From assembly GCF_003287495.1 (NCBI RefSeq), contig NZ_PRLE01000005.1:1-64000 (forward strand): a stretch of DNA of 64,000 nt, read 5' to 3'. The notes below the pieces were generated by a model. That model did no database searches and was not told where the DNA came from. It worked only from the letters and a program-made list of their open reading frames with translations. The stretch's first letter is position 1; every line of letters starts with the position of its first letter. A program made the translations under genes and the position numbers. The stretch comes from Faecalibacterium prausnitzii (GTDB lineage: Bacteria > Bacillota > Clostridia > Oscillospirales > Ruminococcaceae). Positions 4,020 through 13,027 of the stretch are shown here, piece by piece.

Positions 4020-5633
4020 TCAGACAATAGAAGATGCGGGCGTCAACTCGTACACATGATCGAACTGGGCTTTACGTTCGTCGCTCAGGTGATGGCTAAT
4101 CAGGATCAGGGTCAGGTCAGGGTTGGACAGCAGGCTCTTCTCCACGATGTCGGCGTTCTTCTGGTCCAGGGCGCTGGTGCCCTCATCCACCAGCAGGATG
4201 CTGCGGTTATGGATCAGAGCACGGGCGATGGCCACGCGCTGCTTCTGGCCGCCCGAGAGGGCGTTGCCTTCCTCGCCCACCGGCGTATCCAGACCCTTGG
4301 GCATATTGGCAAGGTCGCCTGCCAGGGCGCTGTCACGCAGTGCCTTTTCCATCTGCTCGTCGGTAAAGTGCTCACCCAGGGTAATGTTCTCACGGATGGT
4401 GGTATTGAACAGGAACACATTCTGTTCGATGTAGCTCATTTTCTGCTGGAGCTGCTCGGGCGTGTAATCCCGCACGTCTCTCTCGTCATAAAGGACCTTG
4501 CCCTGGTAGCCGGGCAGCCAGCCCAGAAGAATCTTCAGCAGGGTGCTCTTGCCGCAGCCGGAGGGACCGGTGAGGGCGTATTTGCCGCCTTTCTTGAATT
4601 CCGCGTTCATGTGGACCAGGATCGGCTTCTTTTCATCGTAGCCGAAAGAGACATCCTTGACCGTAATGCCTTCCTGCAGGGTAGGCAGACCGAAATCAGG
4701 AAGCTGCGCCTCGCCGGCATGGATGGTAATCTTATCGAAATAGGGCTTGCTGGCCGAGAAGGACACTGCAAGTTTGGACACCTGGTTCAGTCCATTATAC
4801 ACGCCGGCGCAGATGGTACCGGTGCCCATAAAGGTGGCCAGAGGAATCATATCATTGAGGATCAGGACACCCAGCAGGATGACAACGGCCACTTGGCAGA
4901 CGGCGCTGACATAGGCCAGACCACAGCCGATGCCGTCCTTGTTGATGGTCAGTTTGTACTTGGCCTGCTCCATGCTGTCGCTGGCTGCATCGACTCCGCT
5001 GGTAAACCGTTCATCCTTGCCAAAGAAGCGAAGCACATCGTAACCTGCCAGCAGATCCTTGATTTTACTGACGCTGTCAGCCTGGCTGGCGGCACAGGCT
5101 GTGCCAACGGTTCCCAACCGTTTGCTGAACAGACGAGGAACGAAGATCATAACCAATGCGATGACCAGAGAAATCACCAGAAGCAGCCAATGAATGGATG
5201 CCAGTGCAACGATGCCGAACACCACCTGTGCCGCAGAACCCATGATGGTGAAAAACGGAGTCCAGGCCATCTGCTCAATCTGGTTCACGTCGTTGGTAAA
5301 CTGGGAGAGGTACTCGCCGCTCTCCTGCTTATGATACTCCTGATGGGTCTTGTGCAACAGGCCCGCTGCCATATCCCGGCGCAGAGCGTTGTTCATCCGG
5401 CGCACGGCCCGGCCCTGGAAGAAGGTCTCAGCAATCAGGCAAAGGACCACGGCCAGCCAGGTCAGCAGAAGAAGAATGATCCGAATGGTGAAAGCCCGCA
5501 GATCACCGTCCAGCAGTCCCTGGGTGATCTGAATCTGTACCAGACTGGTGCAGACCTGCAAACCATAGGCAACAACCATACAGATGGAGGCCGCTGTAAC
5601 AGTGGGCCAGCACTTTTTGAGATAATACTTCAT
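4020..5633 (-). CDS. ABC exporter (fused permease-ATPase) of the RiPP locus
   Basis: A 537-residue half-transporter. Residues about 1-300 hold about six membrane segments; the C-terminal half is the nucleotide-binding domain with Walker A GPSGCGKST (about 356-364), signature LSGGQKQR, Walker B ILLVDEGTSALD and the switch His in ISHH. No C39 peptidase domain is present, so leader removal, if any, is done elsewhere. I chose ATG 5633 because GAGGTGG lies just upstream; a GTG at 5642 is possible. It is transcribed separately from the maturase from a promoter with the operator motif shared by the locus, so it most likely exports the modified peptide or the signalling peptide. Confidence 0.85.
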   Translation of the reverse strand: MKYYLKKCWPTVTAASICMVVAYGLQVCTSLVQIQITQGLLDGDLRAFTIRIILLLLTWLAVVLCLIAETFFQGRAVRRMNNALRRDMAAGLLHKTHQEYHKQESGEYLSQFTNDVNQIEQMAWTPFFTIMGSAAQVVFGIVALASIHWLLLVISLVIALVMIFVPRLFSKRLGTVGTACAASQADSVSKIKDLLAGYDVLRFFGKDERFTSGVDAASDSMEQAKYKLTINKDGIGCGLAYVSAVCQVAVVILLGVLILNDMIPLATFMGTGTICAGVYNGLNQVSKLAVSFSASKPYFDKITIHAGEAQLPDFGLPTLQEGITVKDVSFGYDEKKPILVHMNAEFKKGGKYALTGPSGCGKSTLLKILLGWLPGYQGKVLYDERDVRDYTPEQLQQKMSYIEQNVFLFNTTIRENITLGEHFTDEQMEKALRDSALAGDLANMPKGLDTPVGEEGNALSGGQKQRVAIARALIHNRSILLVDEGTSALDQKNADIVEKSLLSNPDLTLILISHHLSDERKAQFDHVYELTPASSIV

Positions 5634-5709
5634 GATTTCCACCTCTTCTGTGATCGTTCCATCTGTCTCTATGAACAGTGGATTGTGTGCTTTGCTCTTT
5701 CTGATTCAA

Positions 5710-5762: not shown

Positions 5763-7013
5763 TTACACACATTCTGATTTTCTATAGAGGCAAACTGTCT
5801 TTCCATCAATAATTTCAGACTTTTTGCACTGCATATTCATGCAGCGCAAAACATTCCGGCAGCTACGACACTCGGGCTTCAGATCAGAAAAGCTCCACCG
5901 GCAGTTAACCTCCGGGTCGATCACAATACCTTTTTCGGGATCAACCCAACCTAACTGGTTTTGCGGGTGGTCAAGCGCCACAGTGCATTTGCCAATTTTT
6001 CCATTGGCCCGGAATACCATGCTATGTGGATAGGAAGCGTAGCACACCTGTGCAAGGGCTCCGTTTCTGTGGTTATGACACGACATCCCGATCTTATCCA
6101 GATATGCAACATGTTTTGCTACCAACACATCTTTTGTATCCTGATGAAGGATGGATAGACTGTGGACGCCTTCACCACCCCAGTCACCAACAGCACGAAC
6201 AAGTACGGCGAAGCGTTTGTCATGCCCAAACAGACGGTACAGATAATCATACCAACTGTAGTCCTCATCGTCGGCCAGAATATTGTGGCGCAGCGTGATA
6301 TGAAAGGAATACTCTGCCGGCGGCAACTTGGAAAGAGAGGCCAGATTGTTAATGATGGTCTGCAGGGTTCCTTTGCCGGATACATGGGGCCGAGTCTTGT
6401 CGTGATTCCAACCATCAATTGTAATTTGATAGCTGGTGATCCCTGCCTGATAGAACTGCCGAAATAGCTTGTCATTCAGCAGATAACCATTGGTGGTCAT
6501 ATTGGCAGCATAGTGAAAGCCATACTGTTTCTGCAGATTTTGTACAATGTTGGACACTTCCAGCACAGTGTCTTTGCAAAGAGTAGGTTCACCTCCAAAC
6601 CATGCAAGTATGACCTGTTTATAGCGCGGCGCTTGTGCAGTTATATACTCCTCAATTCGGTCCAGTGTGTCACGAGTCATACTGACCGCATGGTGATCTT
6701 CATAGCAATATGGGCAGCGGAAATTGCAGCCTTCCGTCGGCATCAATGTTACCATGAAGATATTATCCAGCAAAGATCTCACCTGGTGCAGCGCATGGTC
6801 CAGTTCTTCCTCGGTTACCAGAAGCTCTTGCTCATGCAGATGGCGTGTCAACGGCGTATTCAGTTCCGCACAGCCGCCGCAACGGGTGAGATTGATGAAC
6901 TCCTTCTGCAGGCCATGATCGGTCAGCCGGACGGTATTGCGATACAATTCTGATGTAATATAAATAGCATCTTCTTCCGTGCGATAGGTCACATAGCTGG
7001 GTACTGTATACAT
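5763..7013 (-). CDS. Radical SAM/SPASM peptide maturase
   Basis: A 416-residue radical S-adenosylmethionine enzyme. The CxxxCxxC iron-sulfur motif is at residues 96-103 (EGCNFRCPYCYED); GGEPT near 150 contacts SAM. The C-terminal ~95 residues form a SPASM domain with many cysteines (CRSCRNVLRC and more) that would bind auxiliary clusters. Such enzymes install thioether or carbon-carbon crosslinks on ribosomal peptides. The N-terminal ~85 residues resemble the region used by relatives to bind precursor leaders. Start ATG 7013 has AGAGGAG upstream. The 24-residue precursor gene lies about 105 bases upstream on the same strand, separated by a hairpin. Which crosslink it makes cannot be told. Confidence 0.88.
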   Translation of the reverse strand: MYTVPSYVTYRTEEDAIYITSELYRNTVRLTDHGLQKEFINLTRCGGCAELNTPLTRHLHEQELLVTEEELDHALHQVRSLLDNIFMVTLMPTEGCNFRCPYCYEDHHAVSMTRDTLDRIEEYITAQAPRYKQVILAWFGGEPTLCKDTVLEVSNIVQNLQKQYGFHYAANMTTNGYLLNDKLFRQFYQAGITSYQITIDGWNHDKTRPHVSGKGTLQTIINNLASLSKLPPAEYSFHITLRHNILADDEDYSWYDYLYRLFGHDKRFAVLVRAVGDWGGEGVHSLSILHQDTKDVLVAKHVAYLDKIGMSCHNHRNGALAQVCYASYPHSMVFRANGKIGKCTVALDHPQNQLGWVDPEKGIVIDPEVNCRWSFSDLKPECRSCRNVLRCMNMQCKKSEIIDGKTVCLYRKSECV

Positions 7014-7065
7014 ATTAGCTCCTCTTTATCTATATAAAAATCCTGATTACAGGATAATTGTTCGA

Positions 7066-7099
7066 AATAAGGGGCCCGGAACAATCCGAACCCCTTATT
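7066..7099 (-). terminator. Hairpin between precursor and maturase genes
   Basis: AATAAGGGG pairs with CCCCTTATT around a short inner helix. It sits just after the precursor stop codon and before the maturase. No strong T-run follows, so it is more likely an attenuator or mRNA-stabilising hairpin that lets precursor transcript exceed maturase transcript, as is common in RiPP operons. Confidence 0.55.
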
Positions 7100-7118
7100 A
7101 AAGTGGTAATTAACCCTG

Positions 7119-7193
7119 TTAGCAGAAGATATTAATGTCGATATTGCAATCAACCTGTTCTTCAATGGGCTTCTTCTCAGCGAGGACTTCCAT
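7119..7193 (-). CDS. Putative RiPP precursor peptide, 24 residues
   Basis: A tiny gene, ATG 7193 to TAA 7119, encoding 24 residues: an acidic, lysine-containing leader-like start (MEVLAEKKPIEEQVD) and a C-terminal core CNIDINIFC with cysteines at positions 16 and 24, the last residue. A purine-rich AAAGAAAAGAG stretch precedes the ATG and the frame is closed by a stop upstream. It lies directly upstream of the radical SAM/SPASM gene and downstream of the strongest shared operator. I infer that the maturase crosslinks one or both cysteines and that the exporter secretes the product. I recognise no named precursor family. Confidence 0.68.
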   Translation of the reverse strand: MEVLAEKKPIEEQVDCNIDINIFC

Positions 7194-7265
7194 GATTTGT
7201 TTCTCTTTTCTTTAAGATTTATCAGCTTGGAACCTCTGATTGTGCAAGTCCCTTGCTGTGACTGT

Positions 7266-7336
7266 ATTGTAGCACAGATAGTTGTTAAGGAACATATCGC
7301 ATCATGTTAATTAAAAATAACACAAAACGATATGTT
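7266..7336 (-). promoter_or_regulatory. Precursor promoter with two-armed operator
   Basis: Operator of two 19-base arms: AACATATCGCATCATGTTA (7291-7309) and TAACACAAAACGATATGTT (7318-7336), inverted, with an 8-base AT-rich spacer. On the minus strand the near arm ends 19 bases before a TACAAT -10 box (7266-7271) that shares GTGCTACAAT with the exporter promoter. The likely protein is the HTH-TPR regulator encoded divergently from it. Confidence 0.68.
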
Positions 7337-7406
7337 TTAGAACGCGTAGTGTCATCGTACTAGGGAACCTCTGATTTAATCAAAGCTACCATCCCGCTGC
7401 CGGATA

Positions 7407-7501: not shown

Positions 7502-8416
7502 ATGAAAAATGTCTTTCTGGGAGAATACATTAAACAGCGACGGCTGGATCTGGGTTTGACGCAGGAGCAGCTCTGCGATGGAATCTGTGAGCCTGTGACT
7601 CTTTCCCGGCTGGAAAATGGGAAACAGACCCCCAGCCGCAACCGGATCAATGCCCTTTTGCAGCGTCTGGGCCTGCCGGATGACCGCTATTTTGCTCTGC
7701 TGAGTAAAAATGAACTGGAGATGGAAGCTCTTAAGAAAGAAATTGTTGCCTGCAATGTGACCGAAAAGGTGCCGGAGGGCTTTGAGAAGCTCGCACAATT
7801 TGAAAAGCTGGCAGATCCGGATGATCAAATTTCGCAGCAACTTGCCCTGCGTTCAAGGGTACTTCTGGGACGCTTAGATGGACGCTACACGCCGCTGGAA
7901 CAAATCGATCTGCTAATGCAGGCAATCCGGCTGACCGTGCCACGCTTTGACCTGGAGAGTATAGAAAGTTTCCTTTATACAAAAGATGAAATCACAATTA
8001 TCAATCAGATTGGGCTTGCTTACTCTGATGCTGGCCAAAATAAAAAAGCAGCTGAAATCTACTATCAGCTGCTTAAGTATGTGCGTAAGCATTTTAAGGA
8101 AACCATAACATCTATTGGGGTGTTGCCTTTGGTCCTTTATAATTATGCTCGGGTACTGGATTTGTGCGGTCGCTATGAGGAAGGAACTGCACTCGCTAAA
8201 GAAGGACGAGAAGCCTGTATTCAATATGGACATTACCAAGAATTGCCCCGATGTCTGGAAATTGAAGCGGAATGCCGACATTTTATGGGCGATGACGAAA
8301 TCAGCAAAGAATTGTACTATCAATCGTATTATCTCTGCAAAGTTATTGAATATCAGGTTGGATTGGAAATAGTTAAAAAAGAAGCTAAAGAATATCTGGA
8401 TCTTACTTTAAGCTAA
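7502..8416 (+). CDS. Rgg/PlcR-like HTH-TPR transcriptional regulator
   Basis: A 304-residue cytoplasmic regulator: N-terminal helix-turn-helix (about residues 5-60, LGEYIKQRRLDLGLTQEQLC with SRLENGKQTPSRNRINALL) and then helical repeats of TPR type to the C-terminus (for example NQIGLAYSDAGQNKKAAEIY). This architecture is that of the RRNPP peptide-pheromone receptors (Rgg, NprR, PlcR, PrgX, TprA), which bind re-imported peptides through the TPR domain. ATG 7502 is used because GGAGGG stands nine bases upstream. A convergent secreted peptide gene overlaps its last bases, and three nearby promoters carry one operator. I infer that it controls the RiPP locus in response to that peptide. Confidence 0.8.
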   Translation: MKNVFLGEYIKQRRLDLGLTQEQLCDGICEPVTLSRLENGKQTPSRNRINALLQRLGLPDDRYFALLSKNELEMEALKKEIVACNVTEKVPEGFEKLAQFEKLADPDDQISQQLALRSRVLLGRLDGRYTPLEQIDLLMQAIRLTVPRFDLESIESFLYTKDEITIINQIGLAYSDAGQNKKAAEIYYQLLKYVRKHFKETITSIGVLPLVLYNYARVLDLCGRYEEGTALAKEGREACIQYGHYQELPRCLEIEAECRHFMGDDEISKELYYQSYYLCKVIEYQVGLEIVKKEAKEYLDLTLS

Positions 8417-8623
8417 GTTGCCATCTCCTGGCATAGCATCACATGGCTGGATAGAAGGTCTGTCCGGATTCTCAGGCTGATCAGAACCGTCAGGCTGTTC
8501 CGTTTCGGTCACACCAGGCTGCGGCGTGGGCAAGTCTTCAGGCTCAGCGGCAAAGCAGGGGACAGCCAGTAGACTGGTGGCCAGAACAATAGAGGTAATC
8601 AGGGTAAAGATACGTTTCATCAT
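8408..8623 (-). CDS. Secreted pro-peptide, candidate pheromone precursor
   Basis: A 71-residue protein with a clear Sec signal peptide (MMKRIF, hydrophobic LITSIVLATSLLAVPC, then FAA as cleavage site) followed by a disordered Pro/Glu/Asp-rich linker and a C-terminus ending MPGDGNLA. AAAGGA lies upstream of ATG 8623. Its last nine bases overlap the end of the HTH-TPR regulator gene in convergent orientation, as in Rgg-SHP and TprA-PhrA pairs, and its promoter carries the shared operator, suggesting positive feedback. The mature signal would come from the C-terminal part by proteolysis, which is inference. It is longer and more acidic than classical SHPs. Confidence 0.68.
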   Translation of the reverse strand: MMKRIFTLITSIVLATSLLAVPCFAAEPEDLPTPQPGVTETEQPDGSDQPENPDRPSIQPCDAMPGDGNLA

Positions 8624-8664: not shown

Positions 8665-8735
8665 AGGATACCACTACAAGGCCATACAGACCATATCGTG
8701 CTGTGTTGCTTTTTTCTAACACAAAACGACGGGTT
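8665..8735 (-). promoter_or_regulatory. Pro-peptide promoter with two-armed operator
   Basis: Arms ACCATATCGTGCTGTGTTG (8690-8708) and TAACACAAAACGACGGGTT (8717-8735) are inverted with an 8-base spacer, the same geometry as at 7291-7336. On the minus strand TATCCT (8665-8670) stands 19 bases further on as the -10 box, then the pro-peptide start at 8623. Confidence 0.62.
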
Positions 8736-9040: not shown

Positions 9041-9085
9041 CTCTTAATCAGTGGGCCCAGGGTTCGAGTCCCTGGAGGTGCACCA
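9041..9085 (+). other. 3' fragment of tRNA-Lys(CTT), probable attR
   Basis: The sequence from the anticodon loop (CTCTTAA, anticodon CTT) through the T-arm (GGTTCGAGTCC) and acceptor strand (GGAGGTGC) to the encoded ACCA is that of a tRNA-Lys, but the 5' half is missing: no GCACCTC acceptor partner precedes it. A 45-base duplicated tRNA 3' end followed by the gene's terminator is the normal right scar of an element integrated into a tRNA gene. The intact tRNA would lie to the left of the window, placing the RiPP locus inside the element. Confidence 0.72.
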
Positions 9086-9125: not shown

Positions 9126-9143
9126 GCTATGTAACCCCGAAAA

Positions 9144-10075: not shown

Positions 10076-13027
10076 ATGTTGTCCATCAACATGGATGATG
10101 TAATGCAGGTGATTTCGAATATCAAAAATTACCTGATTGCATTCGGCGTTGTCCTCGTGCTTGCGCTCATCGTGATGTTCGCAGTGCGGAAGATGCCCAA
10201 GGCGAAAAAGAAACTCATCCGGGCGCAATCCGGCGTTGCCATTCTGCTGGCGCTGGCTATCGTTGCAAATCTTATTTGCACCGGCCCTATGTCCACCATG
10301 CTGGATCTAGTTTCCGGCAGTGGCACGATCAGCGAGGAGACCTCTGCAGAGGCAACGCAGTTGGTCAACGAGATTACACAGGAGGGCGTCGTTCTGGCAC
10401 AGAACGACGACAATATCCTGCCGGTGGCTTCCGGTTCGAAGCTGAACGTCTTCGGCTGGTCTTCTACGAATCCCTGCTACGGCGGTACAGGTTCGGGTGC
10501 TTTGAATGATGCTTACCCCGTCACGGACCTGCTCACTGGCCTGCATGATGCTGGCATTGAGACCAACGACGAACTGAGCAAGTTCTATACCGATTACTAC
10601 GCTACGCGTCCGACCGTTGGTATGTCGAAGCAAGATTGGACTCTGCCGGAACCCAATGTCAATCTCTATACCAACGAGATGATGGAGAATGCGAAGAACT
10701 TCTCCGATACTGCAATGGTCGTTATCACCCGCGTTGGCGGTGAGGGGGCAGACCTTCCCACCGACATGGCCGCAGTTGCGGGCGGCAACTGGATTCGCCG
10801 CGTGGCAGAGTACCGCGGCAATGAAAAGGGCGCTGGTTACTACAACGGCACCTACGACGATACCCTCAATGAGGGCAATGATTGGGATGCAGGCGACCAC
10901 TTCTTGCAGCTGTCCAACCGTGAGGAAGAACTCATCGACCTTGTTACCGCAAACTTTGATAATGTCATTGTTGTTTACAACGGTGCAAACGCTTTCGAGA
11001 TGGGTTGGGTCAAGGATTACCCCCAGATCAAAGGCGTTCTGCTCTGCCCCGGCACCGGTCAGTCTGGCTTTGAGGGCTTTGGCCGCGTCGTTTCTGGTGA
11101 GGTCAGCCCCTCTGGACGTACCGCTGATACCTATGTTGAGGACTTGACTGCCTCCCCGTGGTGGAATAACTTCGGTGATTTCAAGTACACCAATACCGAG
11201 GAAATCAATTCCAACGCCAGCGGCTTTGACCCCGCCGGTGCATCTCCCTCTTTTGTCAACTACGTTGAGGGCATCTATGTTGGCTATAAGTTCTACGAGA
11301 CTGCTGCTGACGAAGGCCTCATTGATTACGACAAGGAAGTTGTCTATCCCTTTGGCTATGGCTTGAGCTACACGACCTTTACGCAGGAGATGAGTGACAT
11401 CACCTCCGATGGTCAGAATCTCAACTTCACCGTGACCGTCACCAACACTGGCTCTGTGTCTGGTAAAGATGTTGTGGAAATCTATGATAATCCTCCGTAT
11501 ACCAACGGCGGCATTGAAAAGGCTTCTGCAAACCTGCTGGACTTCAATAAGACCAGGGAACTGGCTCCTGGCGAGAGTGAGACCATCCGCTTCTCTATCC
11601 CGGTCGAAAACCTGGCTTCCTACGATTATCAGAAGAATGGCTGCTATGTGCTGGAGGCAGGCGATTACATCATCAGCGCCAAGGCCGATTCACACAATGT
11701 ACTGGATTCTAAAACTTATACGGTTGCTTCCGATATTGTCTATGGCACCGACAACAAGCGCGAAAGTGATGCTGTTGCTGCTACCAACGAGTTTGATTTT
11801 GCAAAGGGTGACTTCACTTATCTGTCCCGCGCCAACGGCTTTGCCAACTATGACGAGGCGACCGCTGCTCCTGCAACTTATGAAATGAGTGATGAAGTCA
11901 AGGCTGGCTTTGATAACTGCTTCACCTACACGGAATCCGGCTATGAACTGGACGACGACCCCAACGCTGAGGACATCACGACTGGGGCAAAGAATGGCAT
12001 CAAGCTGGCAGACCTGCGTGGTGTGGACTACAACGATTCCAAGTGGGATGACCTGCTGGACCAGATGACCCTTGACGACTTGCAGCAGACCATCGGCTTC
12101 GGCGGCTATCAGACCGCAGCCGTGGACAGCATCGGCAAAGTGCGCACCAATGCCTGCGACGGTCCCGCTTCCATCAACAACAACTTTACCGGTGTCGGCT
12201 CGGTCGGTTTCCCGGCAGCTACCCTCATCGGCATGACTTGGAGCAAAGACCTTGCTCACTCTTTCGGTGACAGCATCGGCAAGATGGCCAATGAGATGAA
12301 CACCTCCGGCTGGTATGGTCCGGCTATGAACATCCACCGCACTGCCTTTGCAGGCCGTAACTTTGAGTATTACTCGGAGGATGGCGTTCTCTCTGGTACG
12401 ATGGCTGAAAATGCAATCAAGGGAGCACAGGAGCACGGTGTGTATGCTTGTATGAAACACTTCGCTCTGAACGACCAAGAGGGCAACCGTAATTCCATGT
12501 TGGCTACTTGGTCCAACGAGCAGGCCATCCGTGAAATTTACCTCAAGCCCTTTGAGATGTCTGTGAAAGATGCAGACTGCCATGCAGTGATGTCCTCTTT
12601 CAACTACATCGGCAATCGCTGGGCTGGCGGCTGCAAAGAACTTCTGAACGATGTTCTGCGTGGGGAATGGGGCTTTGTGGGCTTCGTCGAGACGGATTAC
12701 TTCGGTGTCTACGGTTACATGACTGCGGATCAGGCAGTCCGCAACGGCGGTGACCTGATTCTCTGCACCACCGGCAACGATTATAACAATGTTACCGTGC
12801 TGACCAACAGCAGCAAGCAGGCCATGCGTACTGCTGCGAAGAACATCCTTTACACTGTGGTCAATAGCCGCGCTTATGAGGCAGAGAACCTGAACCCCGG
12901 CATGGCATCCTGGAAAATCGTTATGATTGGTGCAGATGTCGTTGTTGCACTGCTGGTAGTTGGTCTGGAATACACTGCCATTAAAGGGTACAAGAAGCGC
13001 AAGGAAGAGGAAGCAGAGAACGGTTGA
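10076..13027 (+). CDS. Membrane-anchored GH3 beta-glucosidase, domain-permuted
   Basis: A 983-residue glycoside hydrolase family 3 protein with inverted domain order. Two membrane segments at the N-terminus (about residues 20-65) are followed by the GH3 C-terminal sandwich domain (about 95-430), a fibronectin-III-like domain (about 440-545), a linker, and only then the catalytic TIM-barrel domain (about 650-900) with KHF-type text CMKHFALND and the probable nucleophile Asp 874 in ETDYFG, where most GH3 enzymes have SDW. A last membrane segment (about 945-968) and a charged tail end the protein. It probably trims oligosaccharides at the outer face. The permuted order is known in Ruminococcus GH3 enzymes; the double anchor is notable. 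Confidence 0.88.
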   Translation: MLSINMDDVMQVISNIKNYLIAFGVVLVLALIVMFAVRKMPKAKKKLIRAQSGVAILLALAIVANLICTGPMSTMLDLVSGSGTISEETSAEATQLVNEITQEGVVLAQNDDNILPVASGSKLNVFGWSSTNPCYGGTGSGALNDAYPVTDLLTGLHDAGIETNDELSKFYTDYYATRPTVGMSKQDWTLPEPNVNLYTNEMMENAKNFSDTAMVVITRVGGEGADLPTDMAAVAGGNWIRRVAEYRGNEKGAGYYNGTYDDTLNEGNDWDAGDHFLQLSNREEELIDLVTANFDNVIVVYNGANAFEMGWVKDYPQIKGVLLCPGTGQSGFEGFGRVVSGEVSPSGRTADTYVEDLTASPWWNNFGDFKYTNTEEINSNASGFDPAGASPSFVNYVEGIYVGYKFYETAADEGLIDYDKEVVYPFGYGLSYTTFTQEMSDITSDGQNLNFTVTVTNTGSVSGKDVVEIYDNPPYTNGGIEKASANLLDFNKTRELAPGESETIRFSIPVENLASYDYQKNGCYVLEAGDYIISAKADSHNVLDSKTYTVASDIVYGTDNKRESDAVAATNEFDFAKGDFTYLSRANGFANYDEATAAPATYEMSDEVKAGFDNCFTYTESGYELDDDPNAEDITTGAKNGIKLADLRGVDYNDSKWDDLLDQMTLDDLQQTIGFGGYQTAAVDSIGKVRTNACDGPASINNNFTGVGSVGFPAATLIGMTWSKDLAHSFGDSIGKMANEMNTSGWYGPAMNIHRTAFAGRNFEYYSEDGVLSGTMAENAIKGAQEHGVYACMKHFALNDQEGNRNSMLATWSNEQAIREIYLKPFEMSVKDADCHAVMSSFNYIGNRWAGGCKELLNDVLRGEWGFVGFVETDYFGVYGYMTADQAVRNGGDLILCTTGNDYNNVTVLTNSSKQAMRTAAKNILYTVVNSRAYEAENLNPGMASWKIVMIGADVVVALLVVGLEYTAIKGYKKRKEEEAENG

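Follow-up and report, generated by a model that had tools for sequence, protein, structure and literature searches.

A gene of 24 codons lies on the minus strand at positions 7119–7193 of the 64,000-nucleotide stretch of Faecalibacterium prausnitzii DNA analysed here (the window, from genome G000), and its translation is MEVLAEKKPIEEQVDCNIDINIFC. The peptide consists of a leader, MEVLAEKKPIEEQVD, and a presumed core, CNIDINIFC, with a putative boundary between the two. Its cysteines are residues 16 and 24, both within the last nine, and Cys24 is the final residue. On the same strand the gene is followed by a hairpin (7066–7099), a radical SAM RiPP maturase of 416 residues (5763–7013) that starts 105 bases downstream of the precursor, and an ABC exporter of 540 residues (4020–5642). 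Pattern search places an operator-like element on the minus strand before the precursor, CGTTTTGTGTTA-N18-CGATATG, at 7293–7329. A sequence-only reading of the window had described a tiny gene with this core and this cysteine layout, flanked by an operator-bearing promoter, a radical SAM maturase and a downstream exporter, and the frame, the cysteines and all three neighbours were located as claimed. What it did not recognise is the putative quorum-sensing pair that adjoins these genes, namely a divergent 304-residue HTH-TPR regulator (7502–8416, plus strand) and a convergent 71-residue peptide ending QPCDAMPGDGNLA (8408–8623, minus strand), the gene for which overlaps the end of the regulator gene.

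The maturase contains a radical SAM domain with the CxxxCxxC signature, here CNFRCPYC (PF04055, 68 bits against 29.5), and SPASM-like cysteines. In nine aligned sequences C96, C100 and C103 are invariant, as are C324, C343, C382, C385, C391 and C396. The last cysteine spacing of SPASM domains is C-x3-C, whereas that of the maturase is C-x4-C, and Pfam returns no SPASM match at E values up to 1. The best NCBIfam match is TIGR04463 (135 bits, cut-off 525), the PapB-type model NF047865 comes fourth (91 bits, cut-off 340), and the enzyme falls far under the cut-offs of all 25 NCBIfam models listed. The precursor matches nothing in NCBIfam or Pfam at E values up to 1, a result of little weight because 24 residues are very short for such models. 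A PDB sequence profile search with the maturase placed 5wgg first (1.1e-13), and a structure model built from nine sequences (mean pLDDT 83) gave 5why and 5wgg as top fold matches (E 6.8e-15, TM 0.62, rmsd 9.4 over the fold alignment, 16% identity), with SuiB, anSME and SkfB among the matches after them. We take 5wgg and 5why to be CteB. The likeness is therefore to the ranthipeptide maturases CteB (SCIFF), as the closest solved structure, and PapB (freyrasin), as the fourth NCBIfam match, but the identity and rmsd just given set the enzyme apart from CteB, and the precursor has two cysteines in 24 residues as opposed to the six in about 45 that characterise SCIFF. Pfam assigns membrane and ATPase domains to the exporter, with no C39 peptidase among its matches.

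Maturases with at least 44% identity over at least 330 residues were counted at seven places (G000, G011, G015, G020, G025, G210 and L009, a named MAG), leaving aside two truncated copies, the second loci of G011 and G015 (75%, one internal stop). Precursors were looked for at these seven places and upstream of four more distant matches. A small frame precedes the maturase at five of the seven: the window, G011, G020, G210 and L009. The peptide in G011 is identical to that of the window, and those in G210, G020 and L009 are MEVVVKKQAIDEIALCAVTNHCNIC, MEVISEKRELETVLENAHPSAYNTNGGAGCGC and MEVVATKLPLAINSRFFDTIVNNVAGCGCKK, respectively. All have a leader of the pattern MEV[LIV]..K, and no core has more than two residues after its last cysteine. 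The core CNIDINIFC occurs only in the window and G011; the three divergent relatives end in TNHCNIC, NTNGGAGCGC and IVNNVAGCGCKK, their last residues reading HCNIC, AGCGC and AGCGCKK. A search with the precursor DNA in 31 genomes of the genus matched G000 and G011 only. Judged from these peptides, the core is strongly variable and has no acceptor residue conserved at a fixed spacing. The check proposed along with the sequence-only reading, for homologous frames with conserved cores beside related maturases, thus spoke for the frame and against conservation of the core, and recurrence at five of the seven places supports the reading of the gene as a radical-SAM RiPP precursor. We scored the leaders at the four divergent loci, leaving out G011 as identical, by picking a single small ATG frame per locus in the combination that scored highest. 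The mean pairwise BLOSUM score was 25.5 over 12 residues. Among 5000 dinucleotide shuffles, 1914 had a frame in every region, the best reached 11.3 and none reached 25.5. A chance origin of the frame is therefore rejected, and the 24-codon gene is real.

The hairpin in the spacer between precursor and maturase (minus strand) has a 15-bp stem by folding, and a hairpin also occupies this position in G210, G020 and L009. The folding energy of the spacer is −34.2 kcal/mol in the window, −31.0 in G210, −29.0 in G020 and −24.1 in L009, values that were reached by 0, 0, 0 and 1 of 300 mononucleotide shuffles, respectively. Among the four divergent loci the hairpin sequences are unrelated and the position is kept. 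RiPP systems commonly need more precursor than enzyme, a demand that a strong spacer hairpin fits, and the hairpin is probably an expression attenuator.

The RiPP family looks rare and patchy, because few genomes match in any of the samples searched. With a maturase profile, 5 of 31 genomes in the genus matched, the window's own included. The family sample gave 4 of 396, three of them in the genus (G020 and G025 do not figure there), and the order and class samples gave 3 of 394 and 3 of 391, the others being distant; each count includes the window's genome. For the distant matches of the order and class samples, in G530, G701, G822 and G992, inspection by eye of the 900 bases preceding the match revealed no MEV-type frame, and they were set aside. 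The viral collection yielded one weak maturase match (29% identity over about 110 residues) and the plasmid collection 11, none above 33% identity, so a phage or plasmid home is unsupported by the collections searched. Two relatives lack the precursor. In G015 (L013:7015–7130), a stretch matching window positions 7005–7386 is deleted, 382 bases with GTA common to both ends; the deletion removes operator, precursor, hairpin and maturase start and leaves an orphan maturase with an almost full frame. In G025, other sequence takes the place of the precursor and of the 5' portion of the maturase.

In the regulator, Pfam finds an HTH domain above cut-off and TPR and RNPP_C domains below threshold (RNPP_C at 23.4 bits, under the gathering score of 26.5). 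Its structure model (pLDDT 88) has the HTH plus TPR fold of the RNPP/RRNPP family according to Foldseek, in which PlcR occupies ranks 1–5 (3u3w, E 2.4e-8), ComR the sixth and Rgg2 the ninth; two chains of the unrelated TPR protein LGN match at about 1e-4, above Rgg2. On this model, the protein encoded at 7502–8416 looks like a PlcR-like peptide receptor. The 71-residue peptide has a signal-peptide-like start by eye and is probably the pheromone precursor of the adjoining regulator. A convergent peptide ending at the regulator stop occurs at 9 of 13 loci (the window, L012, L013, L014, L016, L017, L045, L028 and L009), where L016 and L017 are near copies and secretion was judged by eye. The peptides end in CDAMPGDGNLA in the window, CDAMPGVGDMG in G011, G015 and G025, YDAFPGGGEAL at the second locus of G011 and G015, FDACPGRGDIA in G016, KIFPMDNEFT in G210 and FVDSMVEDL in L009. 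Seven of the nine have a DA.PG.G end, the two without it being L028 and L009. No convergent signal peptide was seen at L044, L046 or L047. At L043 (G002), near 10971–11040, a pheromone-end fragment, CDAMQGVGDMG, lies without an intact gene. Outside the genus, several of 12 fetched loci (L071–L082) have convergent small peptides, and some genomes outside Faecalibacterium carry several regulator paralogues each. The genome of G020 contains no match to the PlcR-like regulator, though it has the same RiPP family; an AgrB gene and a GHKL kinase domain lie near its RiPP locus (L015:6341–7496).

A second exact copy of the operator-like element precedes the pheromone gene (8692–8728, minus strand). 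These are the only two exact matches in the 2.68-Mb genome, which has one further place with three mismatches; the reversed control has none. A -10-like TACAAT can be read by eye at 7266–7271, and the end of the operator falls at about the -35 position for it, which would suit an activator. When 25 regulator loci were scanned, allowing up to three mismatches and R at one position, the operator was present at both promoters in eight (the window, L012, L014, L016, L017, L045, L028 and L009), which are eight of the nine signal-gene loci among the first 13. At L013 only the pheromone-side copy is found. The pair is absent in the 17 other loci, including L043, L044, L046, L047 and all 12 outside the genus. 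This distribution indicates that the operator pair accompanies close regulators with a signal gene and not the wider regulator family. In G210 the precursor-side operator is a perfect palindrome, CGTTTTATGTTA-N8-TAACATAAAACG.

In G025 the regulator, pheromone gene, exporter and 3' part of the maturase have 96–98% DNA identity to the window locus, and the DNA between them carries a different small frame, MYTVTFSNEELEEMKANDAVVIVSCDDDNGHRLY, a ryptide-like maturase and an MFS transporter. The 471-residue maturase of this cassette matches the ryptide model NF040899 (RRR subfamily) at 349 bits over residues 53–459, below the 600-bit cut-off; the resemblance to ryptides belongs to this other cassette, in G025, G011 and G015, and not to that of the window. 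G011 and G015 contain the ryptide-like cassette as well, each at its second locus, so that three genomes have it behind such a switch. When the G025 and G011 copies are compared, every 200-base bin over 2.8 kb (L014 4598–7397) is 99.5–100% identical, and the G011 copy, at about 8250–11050 of L016, sits at a site that is not orthologous to that in G025. Identity in the flanking bins is 61–91% on the regulator side and, on the far side, 98% in one bin and then 80, 89, 74 and 62.5%, with 35% in the last partial bin. The occurrence of nearly the same cassette at sites that are not orthologous suggests that the switch is conserved while the RiPP outputs behind it are exchanged. In G013, G213 and G378 (L044, L072 and L073), a regulator of this type adjoins an exporter that by eye looks homologous, with no maturase in the stretches read; these loci are possibly immunity-only or non-producers. 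The module is dispensable, because G015 keeps a maturase without precursor or operator and these three genomes have no maturase in the stretches read.

Positions 9058–9083 of the window resemble the 3' end of a tRNA, and this sequence recurs next to the RiPP locus of G020. According to ARAGORN the window has no complete tRNA; whole tRNA genes are present near the G210 and L009 loci. DNA similarity of the window to G011 and G025 ends at 9085, and to G015 at 9126. A possible interpretation of 9058–9083 is the attachment site of an integrated element. Near the locus, at 514–2497, primase-like and helicase-like mobile-element frames can be discerned by eye, and the helicase-like frame (514–1791) ends unlike its relative in G025, which suggests a frameshift.

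Taken together, these genes likely form a quorum-gated RaS-RiPP locus composed of a peptide-sensing switch, a precursor, a maturase and an exporter. We favour this reading because the frame with its leader and the hairpin recur, because the maturase is nearest in the PDB, in sequence and in fold, to 5wgg/5why from a thioether-forming RiPP system, because the fold of the regulator is nearest to that of PlcR with PapR, because the operator stands at both promoters, and because of the DA.PG.G end in seven of the nine signal peptides and the streptococcal precedent (PMC13361665). Against it count the strong variation of the core, the dispensability of the module, the RNPP_C match below its gathering score, the missing regulator match in G020, the 17 regulator loci that lack the operator pair, the two signal peptides with another end and the LGN matches to the regulator model. 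In the circuit that we propose, the 71-residue peptide would be exported and trimmed to a C-terminal signal around DAMPGDGNLA, which would be re-imported and bound by the TPR domain of the regulator. The peptide-bound receptor would then switch on the gene for its signal as well as the RiPP operon. The N-terminal domain of the maturase may bind the MEV.. leader, and its active site may link the C-terminal cysteine, and perhaps Cys16, by a thioether to a nearby residue, perhaps an upstream side chain such as Asn21 in N-I-F-C. The exporter would pump the peptide out, and an unlinked protease would take off the leader. The likely role of the product would be density-dependent inhibition of close relatives, or signalling.

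The streptococcal RaS-RiPPs controlled by Rgg/SHP offer the closest precedent, with sixteen subfamilies, NxxC and ryptides among them, linked to Rgg regulators in a review (PMC13361665). NxxC systems (NxxcA/NxxcB) resemble the window locus in their short precursor, radical SAM maturase and type of peptide-sensing HTH-TPR regulator, and in the N-x-x-C near the C terminus of the peptide. This is a resemblance and not membership, the spacing being lost in the three divergent relatives. The window departs from the streptococcal systems in its host, Faecalibacterium, in a receptor whose model is matched by PlcR ahead of Rgg2, in a convergent signal gene for a precursor of 71 residues, and in a core motif that differs from one relative to the next. 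The PlcR-PapR system of Bacillus resembles the window in its receptor with HTH and TPR domains (3u3w being the best fold match), its adjoining peptide precursor of secreted type and an operator common to signal and target genes. The window differs from that system in its convergent gene order, its operator and in having only two exact genomic sites.

Titles and opening lines of abstracts yielded no description of the locus, no paper on a quorum-sensing receptor controlling a RiPP in Faecalibacterium and none on Faecalibacterium, RNPP and quorum sensing together. The nearest, PMC12802319, reports ranthipeptide clusters called by antiSMASH in Faecalibacterium strains and mentions a possible quorum-sensing role for ranthipeptides at large. 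RRNPP_detector predicted 196 clusters under RRNPP control, and neither Faecalibacterium nor radical SAM occurs in the main text of that report (PMC10075063). A structural phylogeny tied five-TPR receptors mostly to regulation of biosynthetic clusters (PMC12700828), and in the retrieved portion of PMC11377319 Faecalibacterium is named solely among the members of a test consortium. Our best reading of the locus is a new RaS-RiPP family that, like those of streptococci, would be under quorum control, though through a PlcR-like receptor. Against this literature it would be a new family of a known kind, with an arrangement of regulation and exchange that we did not find described.

Several other explanations were weighed against this reading. 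The strong hairpin after the frame in four of four divergent loci would fit a 24-codon frame that is a mere leader peptide, attenuating maturase expression through the hairpin. Conserved N-terminal residues joined to a variable, cysteine-keeping end are typical of RiPP precursors, however, and the adjoining enzyme comes from a peptide-modifying superfamily, which makes this explanation highly improbable. The presence and position of a crosslink in the peptide are themselves predictions from sequence. The NIFC end of the window peptide suggests an Asn-Cys thioether as in NxxcA, where the bond joins Cys23 to Asn20 (PMC8326336). That the maturase forms specifically this NxxC-type beta-thioether, between Asn21 and Cys24, is favoured by the nearly identical position of N-I-F-C (Asn21-Ile-Phe-Cys24) in the window and NxxcA (PMC8326336) and by the closest structure, 5wgg/5why, belonging to a non-alpha thioether system, CteB with CteA being reported to give a gamma-carbon thioether (PMC8326336). 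N-x-x-C is present in the window and G011 but absent in G210, G020 and L009, and we consider this specific bond rather unlikely. Another radical SAM reaction is a little easier to credit, although we would not expect it: an alpha-thioether as in sactipeptides, a carbon-carbon or ether crosslink, or epimerisation. The core also contains Asp, Ile and Phe, and the next fold matches include anSME, SkfB and SuiB, the product of which, streptide, has a carbon-carbon bond (table of PMC8326336), but the cysteine at or next to the C terminus, the feature common to the four cores, points to sulfur chemistry.

The function of the product allows a further alternative, that the mature crosslinked peptide is itself the signal and not an inhibitor. 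It is small, quorum-gated and rare, and SCIFF-derived ranthipeptides are reported, in the table and reference list of PMC8326336, to function in quorum sensing. Patchy presence and replacement of the cassette would look more like interference competition, and we regard a signalling role as unlikely.

On balance, and with modest confidence, we propose that Faecalibacterium and its relatives carry a chromosomal cassette-exchange site. Behind a PlcR-like switch, the pheromone of which drifts in sequence, whole RiPP pathways (the new C-terminal-cysteine family, the ryptide-like family, or an exporter only) would be traded from species to species and from one paralogous site to another. If the proposed circuit is right, the predicted pheromone end, in the DAMPGDGNLA region, could be used to turn on a peptide that may be silent, and the four divergent pairs of precursor and maturase would form a ready set for learning how one enzyme family places cysteine crosslinks. 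If the exchange site is as we propose, an abundant human gut commensal would possess a modular system of peptide weapons or signals under quorum control.
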